DNA of 64,000 nucleotides from Owenweeksia hongkongensis DSM 17368 (GTDB lineage Bacteria > Bacteroidota > Bacteroidia > Flavobacteriales > Schleiferiaceae). The notes under the pieces were generated by a model. It had not been told where the DNA came from and ran no database searches. It was given only the letters and a program-made list of their open reading frames with translations. The position numbers and the translations under genes are program-made. This document shows positions 14,495 through 20,175 of this stretch, piece after piece. How positions within the stretch are numbered: the first letter of the stretch is position 1; each line of letters opens with the position of its first letter. The DNA is taken from contig NC_016599.1 in assembly GCF_000236705.1 (NCBI RefSeq), positions 2,666,001 through 2,730,000 of the forward strand, in the 5' to 3' direction.

Positions 14495-14889
14495 TGTAAG
14501 ATTGGTTTAGTAAAGTAATTGTATGTAAAACTGTGCAGTAAGTATCGAGGTGTTCTTAGGTTTTACTTAAAAGAACATCAAAGGCGAGCATGGCAAAGCA
14601 GCTTTTGTAACCTCTTAAAGTCAGGAGTTTTAGTTGAGCGTGCTTGCGAAAGTTAATGCAAAGAGGCACAAGGACATTGGTTACATATTCAAATGTACAA
14701 AGAGCTGTGACTTAAAACGTGAGGCTTGGCTGGTACTTAGTAATTGGTAAGATAAAGTCCATAAATGGACGATAATATCCAGAAAAGGTCAAACCGAAGG
14801 ATGAAGATCCAGACAAAAAAGGTATAGGAAATAAAGGTTTACATGCGAAAGTTTTAAACTTCTAACTCTGCTCAGGGTTATTGCCTGCA
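14495..14889. other. 395-bp intergenic region between divergent genes
   Basis: No gene is supported. It is the shared upstream region of the M64-like gene (reverse) and the exonuclease gene (forward). A short perfect palindrome GTCCATAAATGGAC lies at 14757-14770. I saw no convincing -7/-33 pair, repeat family or RNA fold. Confidence 0.5.
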
Positions 14890-15915
14890 ATGTCACTCCT
14901 TACTTTTAATAAAAATGGAATTTATTGCAAGCTGGCCGATGTATATATCGACCCATGGAAGCCTGTAAAACGGGCCCTGATAACCCATGCACATGCAGAT
15001 CACTCAAGGAGCGGGCATCAAAGTTATCTGGCTCATAAGGATAGTGAAACAGTAATGCGATTGAGACTGGGTGCAGATATCAATTTAGAAACCGTAGAAT
15101 TTGGAGAAGTAAAGACTATCAATGGTGTGAAGTTCTCTTTTCACCCGGCAGGGCATATCCCCGGCTCTGCGCAAATACGTGCGGAGTATAAGGGCGAAAT
15201 ATGGGTGGTAAGTGGGGATTACAAAGTGCAGAAGGATGGAATTTCTACCCCGTTTGAGCCGGTGGCTTGTCAGCACTTTATAACCGAAAGCACCTTTGGC
15301 CTGCCAATTTATAAATGGGAGGAGCAGCCTGTTGTAATGGATGAAATCAATCAATGGTGGCAATCCTGCAAAGAAAAAAGAAAGGTAGCTGTGATTGGAG
15401 CATACTCATTGGGCAAAGCACAGCGTATCATTAATCATGTAGATCAAGGCATTGGAAGGATATTTACACATGGCGCGGTGGAAAATACCAATCAGGCGCT
15501 GCGAGAAGGTGGGATGGAAATAGCGCCCACCACCTATGTGAGCGATGAATTCGCAAAGAAGGATTTTGCTGGAAACTTGGTGGTATGTCCACCCGGGGCG
15601 CTTGGCAGCGCTTGGATGAAAAGGCTTGGCCCTGCTGAAACAGCATTCGGAAGTGGGTGGATGGCTTTGCGAGGAGCAAGACGTAGACGGGCGGCAGACA
15701 GGGGTTTTGTGCTAAGCGACCATGCTGATTGGGATGGTTTGAATACGGCTGTAATAGCCACTGGTGCTGAAAATATTTACGTAACGCATGGCTATCAAGC
15801 CGCCTATACGCGCTGGCTTGTGGAAGAGTACGGGCTGAATGCGGTGGCTGTGAAAACTCTTTATGAAGGAGAAGGTGCTGAAGAGCAGGAAGGAAAAGAA
15901 GTGAAAAAAGCATGA
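14890..15915 (+). CDS. ligase-associated DNA exonuclease (MBL/beta-CASP fold)
   Basis: A protein of about 341 residues. The frame is open from a TTG at 14881, but the ATG at 14890 (MSLLTFNKNGIYC) is preferred. Metallo-beta-lactamase motifs are clear: THAHADHS supplies the HxHxDH ligands, HPAGHIPGSAQ the next His, SGDYK the bridging Asp, and VLSDHADWDGL the late histidine. The family is described as the exonuclease of a bacterial repair module with an ATP-dependent ligase, a DExH helicase and a PdeM-like phosphoesterase. Here it overlaps the ligase start by 4 nt (ATGA), which confirms the pairing, but helicase and phosphoesterase do not follow. Confidence 0.9.
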   Translation: MSLLTFNKNGIYCKLADVYIDPWKPVKRALITHAHADHSRSGHQSYLAHKDSETVMRLRLGADINLETVEFGEVKTINGVKFSFHPAGHIPGSAQIRAEYKGEIWVVSGDYKVQKDGISTPFEPVACQHFITESTFGLPIYKWEEQPVVMDEINQWWQSCKEKRKVAVIGAYSLGKAQRIINHVDQGIGRIFTHGAVENTNQALREGGMEIAPTTYVSDEFAKKDFAGNLVVCPPGALGSAWMKRLGPAETAFGSGWMALRGARRRRAADRGFVLSDHADWDGLNTAVIATGAENIYVTHGYQAAYTRWLVEEYGLNAVAVKTLYEGEGAEEQEGKEVKKA

Positions 15916-17504
15916 AACAGTTCGCAAACCTTTTTATGCAGTTGGACCAAACCAACAAGACAAACACAAAAGTGGCTGCTTTGGTAGATTATTTTGATAA
16001 AGCGCCCGATGAAGAAAAAGTGTGGGCCATCGCCATTATGAGCCACAGAAGGCCAAAGCGCCCTGTTAGTACACGTGATTTGCGAGAATGGTGTCAGGAA
16101 GAAACGGGTTTGCCTGAATGGCTCTTTGACGAAACCTACCATGTGGTGGGCGACCTTGCTGAAACCATTGCCAAGCTATTACCTAAAGTTGAAAACACTG
16201 AAGACAGAGGTTTACTATACTGGGTTAATTTTCTGATAGAACTACGCGGAAAACCGCAAGAGGAAAAGAAAAAGCAAATACTGGCAGCATGGAGGGAGCT
16301 GGAAACATTTGAGCGTTTTGTCTTTAACAAATTGATAACAGGTGGGTTTAGAATGGGGGTGAGCCAAAAGCTTATGACCCGCGCCCTTTCCCAACATCTA
16401 GACAAGGATCCGGCTGAGATGGCCCACCGCCTGATGGGAAACTGGGACCCTGCAGCGGTTACTTTTTATGACTTGCTTTTGGATGATAGCGTGGAAGCAG
16501 ATACTTCCAAACCTTATCCTTTCTTTTTGGCCTACCAGCTTGAAGATGGTCCCGAAAGTTTAGGGTCACCACATGATTGGTTTGCAGAATATAAATGGGA
16601 TGGAATCCGCGGCCAATTGATTTTTAGAAATGGAGAAGTGTTTTTATGGAGCCGAGGTGAAGAACTCGTAACGGATCAATACCCTGAACTAAAAGAGGTA
16701 GTTGAACTTTTGCCTGAAGGCACCGTACTGGATGGAGAAGTGCTTGTGTATAAAGACGGGCAAATACAAGGATTCAGCCTTTTGCAAAAACGAATAGGGC
16801 GCAAAACAGTGGGTGCAAAAATGCTGAAGGATGCACCTGTGGTGTTGCGCTGCTATGATATTTTGGAATGGGAGGGAAGAGACTTGAGACATGAGACACA
16901 AGAGTTTAGACGGGAGATTTTGGAAAGAGTGTTTACTGGTTTGCCGGACAATAATCTGCTTCAGCTTTCGGAGCTCATTAACTTTAATAGTTGGGAAGAG
17001 TTGATCGCTTTACGCGAAGATGCCCGTAGCCAGTATAGTGAAGGACTTATGCTAAAAGCAAAAAAAGGGACCTATGGAGTGGGCCGGAAAAAAGGCGATT
17101 GGTGGAAATGGAAGGTGGACGCCCTCACCATAGATGCTGTGATGATATATGCGATGAGAGGTCATGGAAGAAGAGCAAATTTATACACCGACTACACTTT
17201 TGCTGTTTGGGATGGCGACAAGTTGGTTCCTTTTGCAAAAGCGTATTCAGGTCTTACTGATGAAGAATTTAATAAGGTAGACAGCTTTGTGAAGCGCAAC
17301 ACTTTGGAGCGCTTTGGCCCGGTGCGAAGTGTAAAGCCAGAATTGGTTTTTGAAATTGCCTTTGAAGGAATTCAAAAATCCACGCGTCATAAGTCAGGTA
17401 TAGCCTTGCGCTTTCCACGTATGAAAAGGTGGAGAAAAGATAAACCTTCCAAAGAAGCTAATACACTTGCTGATTTACAGGAGATGCTCCGTTTATATGG
17501 GTAA
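15912..17504 (+). CDS. ATP-dependent DNA ligase
   Basis: A 530-residue ligase. Residues 1-200 form the N-terminal DNA-binding domain. EYKWDGIRGQ (226-235) is motif I with the adenylated Lys228. VLDGEVLVY is motif III/IIIa, EGLMLKAK motif IV, and WWKWK motif V (the lysine that contacts ATP phosphates). An OB-fold domain follows, ending in RFPRMKRWRKDK. The length and domain set match the bacterial LigB/LigC-like ligases of the ligase-associated repair module. The main replicative NAD+ ligase should be elsewhere. It is coupled to the exonuclease upstream. Confidence 0.94.
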   Translation: MKQFANLFMQLDQTNKTNTKVAALVDYFDKAPDEEKVWAIAIMSHRRPKRPVSTRDLREWCQEETGLPEWLFDETYHVVGDLAETIAKLLPKVENTEDRGLLYWVNFLIELRGKPQEEKKKQILAAWRELETFERFVFNKLITGGFRMGVSQKLMTRALSQHLDKDPAEMAHRLMGNWDPAAVTFYDLLLDDSVEADTSKPYPFFLAYQLEDGPESLGSPHDWFAEYKWDGIRGQLIFRNGEVFLWSRGEELVTDQYPELKEVVELLPEGTVLDGEVLVYKDGQIQGFSLLQKRIGRKTVGAKMLKDAPVVLRCYDILEWEGRDLRHETQEFRREILERVFTGLPDNNLLQLSELINFNSWEELIALREDARSQYSEGLMLKAKKGTYGVGRKKGDWWKWKVDALTIDAVMIYAMRGHGRRANLYTDYTFAVWDGDKLVPFAKAYSGLTDEEFNKVDSFVKRNTLERFGPVRSVKPELVFEIAFEGIQKSTRHKSGIALRFPRMKRWRKDKPSKEANTLADLQEMLRLYG

Positions 17505-17597
17505 TAATGAATTGTATTTGACCAAGAGGATGTGCTTTTCCGGCTAAAATATCTGGAATAACTATATCTTTCCGCCTTAATTTAAAAGCTGAAAAGC

Positions 17598-18344
17598 ATG
17601 CGCATAATTACCATCTTCATTTTTACACTTCTTGTAGCTACTGGTTGTGGTCCAAGCTCTAACCTTATGAGTTCATGGAGCGGGGAGAGCGAAGAAGCAA
17701 AAAAGTATCATAAGCTATACGTGATGGCTATGTTTCCCAATATGGAAACTCGCGTGGCGGTAGAAAATGCTATGGTAGATGCTTTGGTGGCAAAAGGCGT
17801 AAGAGCAATGGTGAGTTATGATGAGTTTCCAATGGCCGGAAAGGCAAAGGAACTTATGGGAATGGCTCGCGATAGTGCAATGCTTGAAAGTGTAAAGCAA
17901 AGTTTCAAAGAAAAAGTTATCAGAAAAGAGGCTGATGGTATTTTTATGATCAGTGCTTTTGATATACAAAAGACGAAAGAATACCATCAAGGAGGGCCGA
18001 GCATTACCATTGCAGCTCCGGTGTATGGCAATAGCTATCCTTACCCTGGGTATGGCGGTAGTTCCTCTCCCTATGCGTATGGTAGCTATTATGACTACTA
18101 TGCTTACAATGTAGCGACAGCGCACTCAGAAGGGTATTACACAACCTCTTCCACTTATTATTTACAGAACAACTTGTTTGATGTAGCCTCGGAGCAATTG
18201 ATTTATTCTTCACAGAGTAAAACAATTGATTACAAAGATTTGAACGATGAAAGCGCCAAACTAAGTGGTTTGATTGTAGAAGATATTACCGCTAAGAATG
18301 TGCTGGTTACCAAGAATGTAAAAACAAAGAAGACGGAGGACTAA
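17598..18344 (+). CDS. lipoprotein of unknown function
   Basis: A 248-residue protein with a short signal and lipobox VATGC (Cys17). The mature part starts with an alpha/beta segment (KKYHKLYVMAMFPNMETRV) resembling Bacteroidota lipoproteins whose fold binds small molecules or other envelope proteins. A Gly/Tyr/Ser-rich insert follows (about 135-180, SSSPYAYGSYYDYYAYNVA). The end is a charged stretch (KNVKTKKTED). No catalytic motif is seen. The 3' end overlaps the convergent acetyltransferase by 4 bp. A TATCTTTC at about 17564 is one base off a -7 element. Confidence 0.72.
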   Translation: MRIITIFIFTLLVATGCGPSSNLMSSWSGESEEAKKYHKLYVMAMFPNMETRVAVENAMVDALVAKGVRAMVSYDEFPMAGKAKELMGMARDSAMLESVKQSFKEKVIRKEADGIFMISAFDIQKTKEYHQGGPSITIAAPVYGNSYPYPGYGGSSSPYAYGSYYDYYAYNVATAHSEGYYTTSSTYYLQNNLFDVASEQLIYSSQSKTIDYKDLNDESAKLSGLIVEDITAKNVLVTKNVKTKKTED

Positions 18345-18778
18345 AGCTTCATTTTCATGTAATGTAAGTGAAGTCCTGGAGCCCAGTAGTTTTCTTTGAT
18401 CTCAAGAACTTTAAAGCCCATTTTTTCATAAAATACTGATGTGTGCTGACTAGTGCGCACTACTAATGTATGTGCAGTTCTTATGGTTTTAAGATGGTTA
18501 ATTCTGTGTTGGGTAATTTGTGTTCCATAGCCTAAACCATGATACGAGGGGTGAATCATGCCCCAGGAGAGTACTGCTTCGGTTTTTCCTTTTTCATAAT
18601 TGAGCCCCCCACAGCCTATAATTTTTCCACTGCTTTCGAGAACGAAGTAATCTTCGCGTTCATTATCCAAATAGTTTGAGAATAGAGCTTCCTCTGATTT
18701 GTCAAAATAAGGAGGAGTGTTCAATCGAATAAGCTCGATGAGGTGTGGTTTGTCGGAGGGGAGATATGGGCGGATCAT
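18341..18778 (-). CDS. GNAT-family N-acetyltransferase
   Basis: A 145-residue single-domain GNAT enzyme. The acetyl-CoA loop is HGLGYGTQI (motif A, Q/RxxGxG/A type), preceded by the central strand EAVLSWGMIHPSYH, and a late strand FYEKMGFKVLEIK. GNAT proteins move acetyl groups from acetyl-CoA to amines, but the acceptor cannot be told. The gene stands alone, overlapping the lipoprotein gene at the 3' end and divergent from the GldM-C protein at the 5' end. Confidence 0.85.
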   Translation of the reverse strand: MIRPYLPSDKPHLIELIRLNTPPYFDKSEEALFSNYLDNEREDYFVLESSGKIIGCGGLNYEKGKTEAVLSWGMIHPSYHGLGYGTQITQHRINHLKTIRTAHTLVVRTSQHTSVFYEKMGFKVLEIKENYWAPGLHLHYMKMKL

Positions 18779-18837
18779 TCTACTACATGCTTTATTTGTA
18801 AATTACTCAACTAAAGTAATTTAAACCAAACCAACCA

Positions 18838-19572
18838 ATGATTTTAAAAAGAAGGTTAATTCAAATCTCAATTCTTGCACTCTTATTAGTTTTTAGCCAG
18901 TGTAAAAATACGAAGCAAGAAACTTCATCAAACCAACCTGCAATTGAAGCTGTGAGCCAAATAGACACAGTTTACATCCATGACACAGTAGTGAGACACC
19001 AACCGCAGGAGTTTCTTCAGCTAGAGAGGATGCGTGTATTGTACGTTGGTGTTGATAATCCTATTAGTGTACATGTGGCTGGGCTGAGTCCAGCGGATAT
19101 TGAAGTAAAAGGTTTGGAAGGTGTTTCCGTTAAAGAAGTTTCAGTGGGAAGGTATGTGGCAACGGCTGCAAAACCGGGAGAAGCCCAGATCAGTGTAGAA
19201 GGCCCCGGGCTAGGACGGATTCACATCTTTCGGGTCAAGCGCATACCTGATCCTGTAGTAAGACTTAGTAATAAAACAGGAGGACTTATGGGCAATGGAG
19301 AGTTTAAGGCTCAAGGAGGAGTAGCAGCCTTCCTTGACAATTTTGATTTTGACGCCACCTGTGCTGTCGTTGAATTTAGATTGACTTACATAGCTAAGCG
19401 AAGTGAGCCTATTACAGTTACGAATGCTGGCCCAAGATACACCAACAAAACACGTGAGTTGGTGAATCGTGCCAAACCTGGGGATACCTACATTTTTACA
19501 TACATAAAAGCCAAGTGCCCGGGTGATGAGGTAGTGCGGAATATTAACAGTATGGCTTTTATGATTCGTTAA
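18838..19572 (+). CDS. stand-alone GldM C-terminal-domain lipoprotein
   Basis: A 244-residue protein with a lipoprotein-like signal (hydrophobic 10-20, FSQC with Cys22) and a short linker. From about residue 65 it resembles the last two periplasmic domains of GldM. The features are MRVLYVGVDNPISVHV (65-80), FRVKRIPDPVVRL (131-143), GEFKAQGGVAAFLDNFDFDA (154-173), AKPGDTYIF (212-220) and KAKCPGDEVVRNINSMAF (224-241). GldM is part of the type IX secretion/gliding motor and normally has an inner-membrane helix plus four periplasmic domains. Here helix and first two domains are replaced by a lipid anchor. It might bind a GldK/GldN-like ring or compete with GldM; that is inference. No gld gene is nearby. 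Confidence 0.85.
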   Translation: MILKRRLIQISILALLLVFSQCKNTKQETSSNQPAIEAVSQIDTVYIHDTVVRHQPQEFLQLERMRVLYVGVDNPISVHVAGLSPADIEVKGLEGVSVKEVSVGRYVATAAKPGEAQISVEGPGLGRIHIFRVKRIPDPVVRLSNKTGGLMGNGEFKAQGGVAAFLDNFDFDATCAVVEFRLTYIAKRSEPITVTNAGPRYTNKTRELVNRAKPGDTYIFTYIKAKCPGDEVVRNINSMAFMIR

Positions 19573-19734
19573 AGGACTTTACTCTCAGCACAAATCAGCT
19601 TAGGCTAAATGGCTAGCATTTTATTTTCGCAGCACCCCACCTTTTGCTTGTGGTAATCGTATTCGAGTTTAGGACACCATCCTCAGTTCTCACCGTGATA
19701 GAGGCGTTTTTCAAAACTTCATTCTTTTCTTTTT

Positions 19735-20175
19735 ATGAAACCAAAAGGTGTTTTTAAGCTGGGCGCGCTTGCTTGTTTGGCAGGAGTCATTCTGTCTGGA
19801 TGTTGCCGATCTATGAACTGTGATTGTAACTTTCCGAGTGTGGGCGTTTTTTACGAAAGTGATAGCCTGAGTTGTCCAACTTCATTTGGCGACCAAATAG
19901 TAGTTACAGCATATAATCAAACTACCAATGATGTGGTTGCAGAGCCATCGGCCTTTTACTCTTATGAATGTGTTGTAGAAATATACTATCGACCAAATAC
20001 CTATTGGGTAATTACTTCGGATACTCTGCAGTTTGCGGACACACTTAGAGTGCGTGATATAAACCTATATGATCCGGAAAATAAGTGTTGTGACTGTGGG
20101 CCTCAAATTGCCAATATTACGCTTGAATTGGGCGATGAGGTTTCATCAGGGAATACCACAGTGCGGAGGTTTTAA
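19735..20175 (+). CDS. small cysteine-rich lipoprotein, function unknown
   Basis: A 146-residue protein with signal peptide and lipobox LSGC (Cys23), followed by CRSMNCDCN. Further cysteines (SCPTSFG, YECVVE, KCCDCGP) suggest several disulfides. The rest is beta-rich. It lies 162 bp after the GldM-C gene on the same strand, too far to claim an operon. No family is recognised. Confidence 0.7.
   Translation: MKPKGVFKLGALACLAGVILSGCCRSMNCDCNFPSVGVFYESDSLSCPTSFGDQIVVTAYNQTTNDVVAEPSAFYSYECVVEIYYRPNTYWVITSDTLQFADTLRVRDINLYDPENKCCDCGPQIANITLELGDEVSSGNTTVRRF

Follow-up and report, generated by a model that had tools for sequence, protein, structure and literature searches.

An exported GldM tip protein without the motor part in Owenweeksia hongkongensis, probably acquired by horizontal transfer

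RESULTS

The locus and its genomic setting

The window, by which we mean the whole stretch of 64,000 nucleotides analysed here, contains the gene for a 244-aa protein whose features are collected in Table 1.

Table 1. Features of the gene and its product, with positions in the window.
Feature	Positions	Strand	Basis or remark
CDS, exported GldM D3-D4 protein without TM, D1 and D2	18838..19572	+	ATG start, 244 aa
Signal peptide, residues 1-22 (KRR, hydrophobic core, FSQC); Cys22 the candidate lipidated residue	18838..18903	+	sequence; helix 2-21 in the model
Linker, residues 23-57	18904..19008	+	pLDDT < 50 for residues 21-54
D3-like Ig domain, residues 58-136	19009..19245	+	GldM_3rd match
D4-like domain, residues 137-244	19246..19569	+	GldM_4th match
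Cys175, first cysteine of the Saprospiraceae-type D4 pair	19360..19362	+	in 84/84 donors
Cys227, second cysteine of the D4 pair (in KCPGD)	19516..19518	+	pair co-varies

Owenweeksia hongkongensis UST20020801 is motile and non-flagellated, according to the part of its description available (PMC3570807). Profile searches found an ordinary, complete GldM in the host genome, encoded beside GldN and approximately 470 kb from the 244-aa gene; genes for a PorP/SprF-like protein, GldK and GldL, named by eye, adjoin these two in the usual order. The 244-aa gene itself sits outside any gldKLMN cluster. The first-pass annotation of this DNA had stated that no gld gene lies nearby and this was confirmed, none of the other ORFs among the nine around the gene in the window belonging to a gld-like family. 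The genes flanking it encode a lipoprotein with a weak, sub-threshold match to DUF4136, a GNAT acetyltransferase, read from the opposite strand, and a lipoprotein of 146 aa. The last of these (window 19735-20175) lies directly downstream, is cysteine-rich, has no family above cut-off and is 67% identical at the orthologous locus. By profile the host has one GldN; a second GldN, of the type found in the donors described below, was sought and discarded, as the search at E ≤ 0.001 gave that one GldN. Adjacent pairs of GldN genes, which we take to be gldN/gldO-like, were seen at G078:C1:1300221-1301896 and G172:C80:2808-4483, in the same family as the window genome.

A metagenome genome of the same genus contains one orthologue of the protein (L034, from genome G001), 89% identical and flanked by the same genes, the gene being present in two of the four genomes of the genus examined. 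It was not found in the same-genus genomes G002 and G003 (G003 is 92% complete); instead, short exported proteins of G002 gave two weak GldM_4th matches. The ligase encoded upstream of the locus was found in five of the 11 genomes searched (E ≤ 1e-30), one of the five being the orthologous locus in G001. Judged by eye, the other four ligase flanks (L177-L180) have only the ligase in common with the window, so that no empty insertion site can be read from them. Comparison of window 14881-20175 with the orthologous locus L114 gave an uneven synonymous distance (NG86), being 0.39-0.46 for the exonuclease, ligase and 244-aa genes, 2.0 for the GNAT gene, 0.98 for the 146-aa lipoprotein gene and not computable for the DUF4136-like gene. 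The value for gldM, which lies elsewhere, was 1.3. Mosaic recombination is one possible cause.

Domain content and fold

Two Pfam families match the protein, GldM_3rd at residues 63-123 with 42.8 bits (cut-off 25.2) and GldM_4th at residues 137-243 with 70.8 bits (cut-off 24.6). The PorM/GldM model TIGR03517 aligned over profile positions 326-520 of 524 only, and its score of 66.2 lies under the equivalog cut-off of 180. Searching the PDB by sequence gave five matches at E < 1e-8, all of them PorM/GldM, with a best E of 1e-10. The AlphaFold2 model had a mean pLDDT of 80.3, with values of at least 84 in each ten-residue block from residue 71 on. When this model was submitted to Foldseek the top seven matches were PorM/GldM (best E 3.1e-14) and the first match to anything else came at E 1.1e-5. 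VIA-align gave Z scores of 15.1-17.9 for PorM/GldM versus 8.5 for the next entry. The ORF is GldM D3 plus D4 without the motor part, and the match is far above chance. Both the profile matches and the structural comparison with GldM D3-D4 agree with the first-pass annotation, which had recognised by eye that only the last two domains of GldM are kept.

The motor helix, D1 and D2 of GldM are absent, as judged from the TIGR03517 span and from the reading frame upstream. It had been feared that an in-frame motor region upstream was overlooked. This is excluded, as the open frame is only six codons longer upstream (250 versus 244), and the 5′ neighbour is the GNAT gene on the opposite strand. The protein has D3, D4 and the fold in common with GldM/PorM, but where these have a TM helix, D1 and D2 it has a signal peptide and a linker.

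The N-terminus and the probable location of the protein

The N-terminus has a positive n-region, a hydrophobic core and then a cysteine, as in a lipoprotein. The lipobox, FSQC, places Q immediately before Cys22, at -1, and F at -3; Cys22 is the sole candidate cysteine. Q at -1 occurred in just two of 111 lipoprotein-like ORFs picked by script from the loci collected in this analysis, these two being the 244-aa protein and its orthologue. Cys22 is retained in the orthologue; a short hydrophobic core precedes it and a polar, low-confidence linker comes after it. From the sequence, lipidation at Cys22 is probable, though not certain, the lipobox being atypical.

Without lipidation the N-terminus would either act as a type I signal peptide and be cleaved off or persist as an uncleaved helix, giving a soluble periplasmic or an inner-membrane protein with possible pairing through D3 with the host GldM. 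The residues at -1 and -3, the former confined to the two Owenweeksia-type proteins, point in this direction, as does the lack of a convincing lipobox in most of the 47 short relatives described below. However, both orthologues have the cysteine, where the short hydrophobic core ends and a polar linker begins, and canonical-looking lipoboxes are found in other D3-D4 proteins. We therefore consider an unlipidated protein unlikely, while still giving it appreciable weight. The first-pass proposal that the membrane helix had been swapped for a lipobox holds in so far as an export signal replaces the motor part; the lipid anchor remains the less certain half of it because the lipobox is atypical.

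The residues from the cysteine onwards are C-K-N-T-K-Q-E in the 244-aa protein and C-K-S-K-K-Q-E in the orthologue. The optimum for surface export in C. canimorsus is C-X-K-(D/E)2-X and the signal varies between species, as reported in the accessible part of PMC5080379. Subject to this variation, the residues of both Owenweeksia-type proteins do not match the C. canimorsus motif and so, if the protein is lipidated, a periplasm-facing position is more likely. We infer that the protein resides in the outer membrane and is directed towards the periplasm. The ring has its own outer-membrane lipoprotein, GldK/PorK, which would be comparable in this respect, but GldK makes the ring whereas the Owenweeksia protein would at most dock on it. 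The fold of GldK is FGE-like and unrelated to that of D3-D4.

Origin of the D3-D4 region

Of 109 loci encoding a relative 80 were kept, comprising the one orthologue, 70 GldMs with the usual N-terminus and nine that were cut or broken. The donor loci, as we call those with a Saprospiraceae-type GldM, were retrieved with patterns derived from the query and are thus the most query-like ones. By title, 69 of the 79 non-orthologue loci belong to the Saprospiraceae group and ten are given as Chitinophagales or only as Bacteroidota or bacterium; across all 79 the Saprospiraceae-type GldM is 43-57% identical (best segment) to the Owenweeksia protein. Among the matches listed for an even sample of the class, the best had 42-48% identity and came from five genomes of one family, the GldMs of which fall among the named Saprospiraceae ones in the trees. 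Among those listed for an even sample of the donors' order, the best was a full GldM with 55% identity. The Saprospiraceae type was assigned by tree in both samples.

A careful tree placed the two Owenweeksia-type proteins nested in the Saprospiraceae-type GldMs with support of 100/99. D4 of the 244-aa protein shows a mean identity of 58% to 84 donors versus 20% to the host GldM. It also contains the pair of cysteines listed in Table 1, which is present in all 93 rows of Saprospiraceae-type GldM (90 distinct, some of them cut fragments) and in both Owenweeksia-type proteins, in none of the 37 other rows (36 distinct: 33 GldM and three short proteins), and is absent from the host's own GldM. 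Being a shared derived character, the pair supports transfer between orders.

Since the host's own gldM encodes the same domains in the same genome, the 244-aa gene could be conceived of as a duplicated and shortened copy of it. However, a clade with the GldM of the host's family was rejected by the AU test (p 1.25e-5), the groups for which were named once the similarity results had been seen, and both the low identity of the D4 domains and the missing cysteine pair argue against such a copy. Duplication within the genome is rejected under the model used and we give it almost no credence. The placement in the tree together with the cysteine pair makes horizontal transfer likely, and there is good support from these comparisons for the entry of the 244-aa protein into the Owenweeksia lineage from a Saprospiraceae-type source.

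It would perhaps have been transferred as a lipoprotein already, given that the order of the best donors has D3-D4 proteins which look like lipoproteins and share this cysteine pair. The pair was found in four of the nine short frames from this order, which include a piece of a broken gldM (L188), and all four are lipoprotein-like (L181, L182 twice and L187). Elsewhere in the class it was found in none of 40 aligned short proteins, one of which has a single cysteine of the two. The L181, L182 and L187 proteins consist, like the Owenweeksia protein, of a signal peptide with a cysteine, a linker and D3-D4 with the cysteine pair, but their lipoboxes are more usual than FSQC. The short genes of L181 and L182 also adjoin a hydrolase-like gene, with a tandem in L182, whereas the Owenweeksia gene is without such a context. 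One clade of the Owenweeksia pair, the L181 protein and one of the two L182 proteins was not rejected (AU test, p 0.337). The exact kinship is left undecided by the trees, the bootstrap of one of the two trees with L181/L182 not having settled.

In these two loci from the donors' family (L181:2461-4982 and L182:2169-4906) the gene beside the lipoprotein-like D3-D4 genes, named hydrolase-like by eye, is conserved. Upstream, L181 has another lipoprotein-like gene, which contains a D3-like stretch.

Constraint on the protein

The dN/dS ratio between the two orthologues, calculated by NG86, was 0.15 overall, with 0.29 for residues 1-57 (signal and linker), 0.16 for D3 and 0.075 for D4; the value for gldM itself was 0.045. 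A position was counted as donor-invariant when its column showed conservation of 95% or more among the donors. Of such positions, 31 of 32 are kept in D4 (host GldM 8 of 32) and, within D3, three of seven in the first strand region (residues 58-70) and all 12 in the rest. The strongest constraint is on D4, the tip domain that contacts PorN in PorM. A solo gene with a patchy distribution in the genus might be a non-functional leftover of a transferred gldM. The frame is nevertheless intact, with its signal peptide, in two genomes and the dN/dS ratios given above, particularly that of D4, run counter to such decay; we regard a leftover as very improbable.

Other GldM tips without a motor part

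The genomes rescanned for similar proteins, 104 in number, were picked for having at least two matches among the class-sample matches listed, and thus the 30 genomes of the 104 reported below do not represent a rate for the class. Genomes G612, G628, G707, G714, G720, G727 and G767 and the window's own genus lay outside the rescan. Short frames numbering 47 were translated, with nine left out as lying at an edge, very short or broken. By a simple script 43 of the 47, in 30 genomes, have an N-terminal, hydrophobic, export-like stretch; 11 of the 47 appeared lipobox-like by script and eight of these were convincing by eye. The survey of orthologues and neighbours proposed with the first-pass annotation has given one close orthologue and this set of short relatives. 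Short D3-D4 or D4-only proteins such as those of L133, L137, L146, L155 and L160 resemble the Owenweeksia protein in being motor-less, with an export-like N-terminus and a GldM_4th match, but they are much more diverged and, for several, the gene row includes an ECF sigma factor or GldL_N-like protein. Exported proteins of 136-160 aa at L144, L149, L151, L168 and L175 contain little beyond GldM D4.

At six of 40 loci, from five genomes (L146, L155, L156, L161, L172 and L174), a related protein of 514-556 aa is encoded upstream of the short gene, directly adjoining it in five and with one gene between them in L156. A single hydrophobic stretch and an invariant block, YREFH...GI-M-YDSAG, characterise this protein; two of the six members, when scanned, had no Pfam match above cut-off. 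An ECF sigma factor gene precedes it in four of the loci, giving an operon-like row, and was identified by Pfam in L146 and by BLAST similarity in L155, L156 and L172; the contig begins at this point in L161 and an opposite-strand gene occupies it in L174.

Two further loci, from two families (L133:2160-7501 and L137:380-8500), encode in the same order a polytopic membrane protein, one or two lipoprotein-like D3-D4 proteins and a SpoIIE phosphatase, the row starting with a long protein of which 821-841 aa are seen before it is cut by the retrieved stretch. The polytopic protein (326-342 aa, motif FKIQHYPGA) has a sub-threshold GldL_N match in L133 (19.8 bits, cut-off 24) and none in L137, and its approximately eight hydrophobic stretches are not those of an ordinary two-helix GldL. 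Four short exported GldM-tip genes lie in tandem at L160:3315-6093, and tandem pairs are present at L137, L154, L161, L162 and L182 and, by eye, at L185. The ECF and GldL_N-like/SpoIIE contexts give the best hint, from gene order, as to what the class may do, though the Owenweeksia gene is without those neighbours. The first-pass suggestion of an independent system thus finds an echo in the rows of other genomes but not in the Owenweeksia locus, where no such partner stands beside the gene. Beyond what that annotation contained, such proteins form a broad class, and it is likely from the sequences that the D3-D4 region descends from a Saprospiraceae-type GldM rather than from that of the host.

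DISCUSSION

In models of the type IX secretion system (T9SS), GldM is treated as one motor shaft, with D4 as the tip in contact with GldN. Reasoning by analogy, the explanation that we put forward, tentatively and with the docking itself a guess, is a transferred, exported, motor-less GldM tip which docks on the GldK/GldN ring. The protein would be the tip of a Saprospiraceae-type GldM, gained by horizontal transfer and exported. It comprises a signal peptide, D3-D4 and, joining the two, approximately 35 residues of flexible linker. As in GldM, its D4 would bind within the cleft that separates GldN subunits, at the side of the GldK/GldN ring or track which faces the periplasm. Tethered to the outer membrane by its linker, D4 could fill free ring sites and the motor-less protein might then serve as a passive cap, tether or brake, tuning the number of sites engaged by GldLM motors.

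The available parts of PMC12421860 describe, for P. gingivalis, a 33-fold ring versus 18 motors, a cross-link between PorM S460 and PorN A241 and an AlphaFold2 model; given these numbers, unoccupied sites exist. For PorN, two-hybrid tests show D4 of PorM to be sufficient by itself, while PorK binding by PorM needs D2-D3 too (PMC5790014, from the portion accessible). AF3 places D4 between PorN copies with weak confidence and the predicted D4-PorN surface is little conserved, as stated in the part of PMC12635249 at hand. Docking is conceivable in this host as it has GldM and one GldN, by profile, and GldK and GldL, by eye. Between host and donors GldN shows 34.5% mean identity over 75 comparisons, with 47 of 72 invariant columns in common, and is more alike than D4, which makes cross-type docking conceivable.

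Several observations argue against docking on the ring. The D4 domain is foreign to the host GldN, and the loop by the cross-link site (PorM S460 corresponds to K187 by PDB sequence alignment) is of donor type, the host GldM differing there. Competition for the ring or bridging to it, as the first-pass annotation envisaged, is made less simple by a D4 of foreign type (20% identity) in a genome with one GldN. GldM swaps a strand in its dimer at the first-strand region of D3, and this region is the least conserved part of D3 in the 244-aa protein, with the three of seven positions noted above. The atypical lipobox, the lack of T9SS neighbours and the presence of the gene in two of the four genus genomes examined (one of the two without it being 92% complete) also count against docking, as does the location of some similar proteins elsewhere in signalling-like rows and not with T9SS genes.

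These last proteins suggest that GldM D3-D4 may have found a second use in the periplasm, where it would bind or sense together with a partner that does not belong to the T9SS; the protein of Owenweeksia would then be a solo member of the class. Such reuse would be consistent with the 43 short export-like proteins with a GldM_4th match in 30 of the 104 rescanned genomes, with the six loci where the related 514-556-aa protein is encoded just upstream (one gene between in L156) and an ECF sigma factor in four of them, with the two loci where SpoIIE phosphatases accompany a polytopic membrane protein that is GldL_N-like in one of them, and with the tandem arrays of up to four copies. However, divergence from GldM is far greater in those proteins than in that of Owenweeksia, where nearly all of the donor-invariant D4 positions are kept, and no such partner gene lies beside the Owenweeksia gene. 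We hold docking on the ring and reuse with another partner to be equally likely, each a genuine possibility falling short of an even chance.

In the titles and available parts of the open-licence papers searched, no description of motor-less GldM tip proteins was found. ‘Extra orthologues of porM’ in F. johnsoniae are mentioned without detail in the available text of PMC5790014, and that of PMC8986121 contains nothing on a motor-less GldM. The ‘truncated GldM’ of PMC7463736, considered as a precedent, refers to an expression construct in the part of that paper available. Taken as a whole, the Owenweeksia protein is a real, constrained, motor-less GldM tip which was probably acquired by horizontal transfer.

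The commonness of motor-less tips suggests that the GldM tip has a life of its own. It is an unlikely but far-reaching extension of this that such tips form an independent, recurrent and mobile class in the Bacteroidota, acting on GldN or other D4-binding sites and tuning or reporting the state of secretion or of the gliding track. If this were true, the Owenweeksia protein would be a horizontally moved ring regulator, the tips in the ECF rows would inform transcription of the occupancy of ring sites, and the rows with GldL_N-like proteins, lipidated D3-D4 proteins and SpoIIE would constitute a second, T9SS-like module. Motor-less tips bear on the question of whether these proteins are regulators of secretion and gliding or recruits to signalling. 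A tip that is exported and kept under constraint but has no motor, and that has apparently passed from one order to another, lends itself naturally to separation-of-function work and could reveal whether occupation or control of the ring requires anything beyond the tip.
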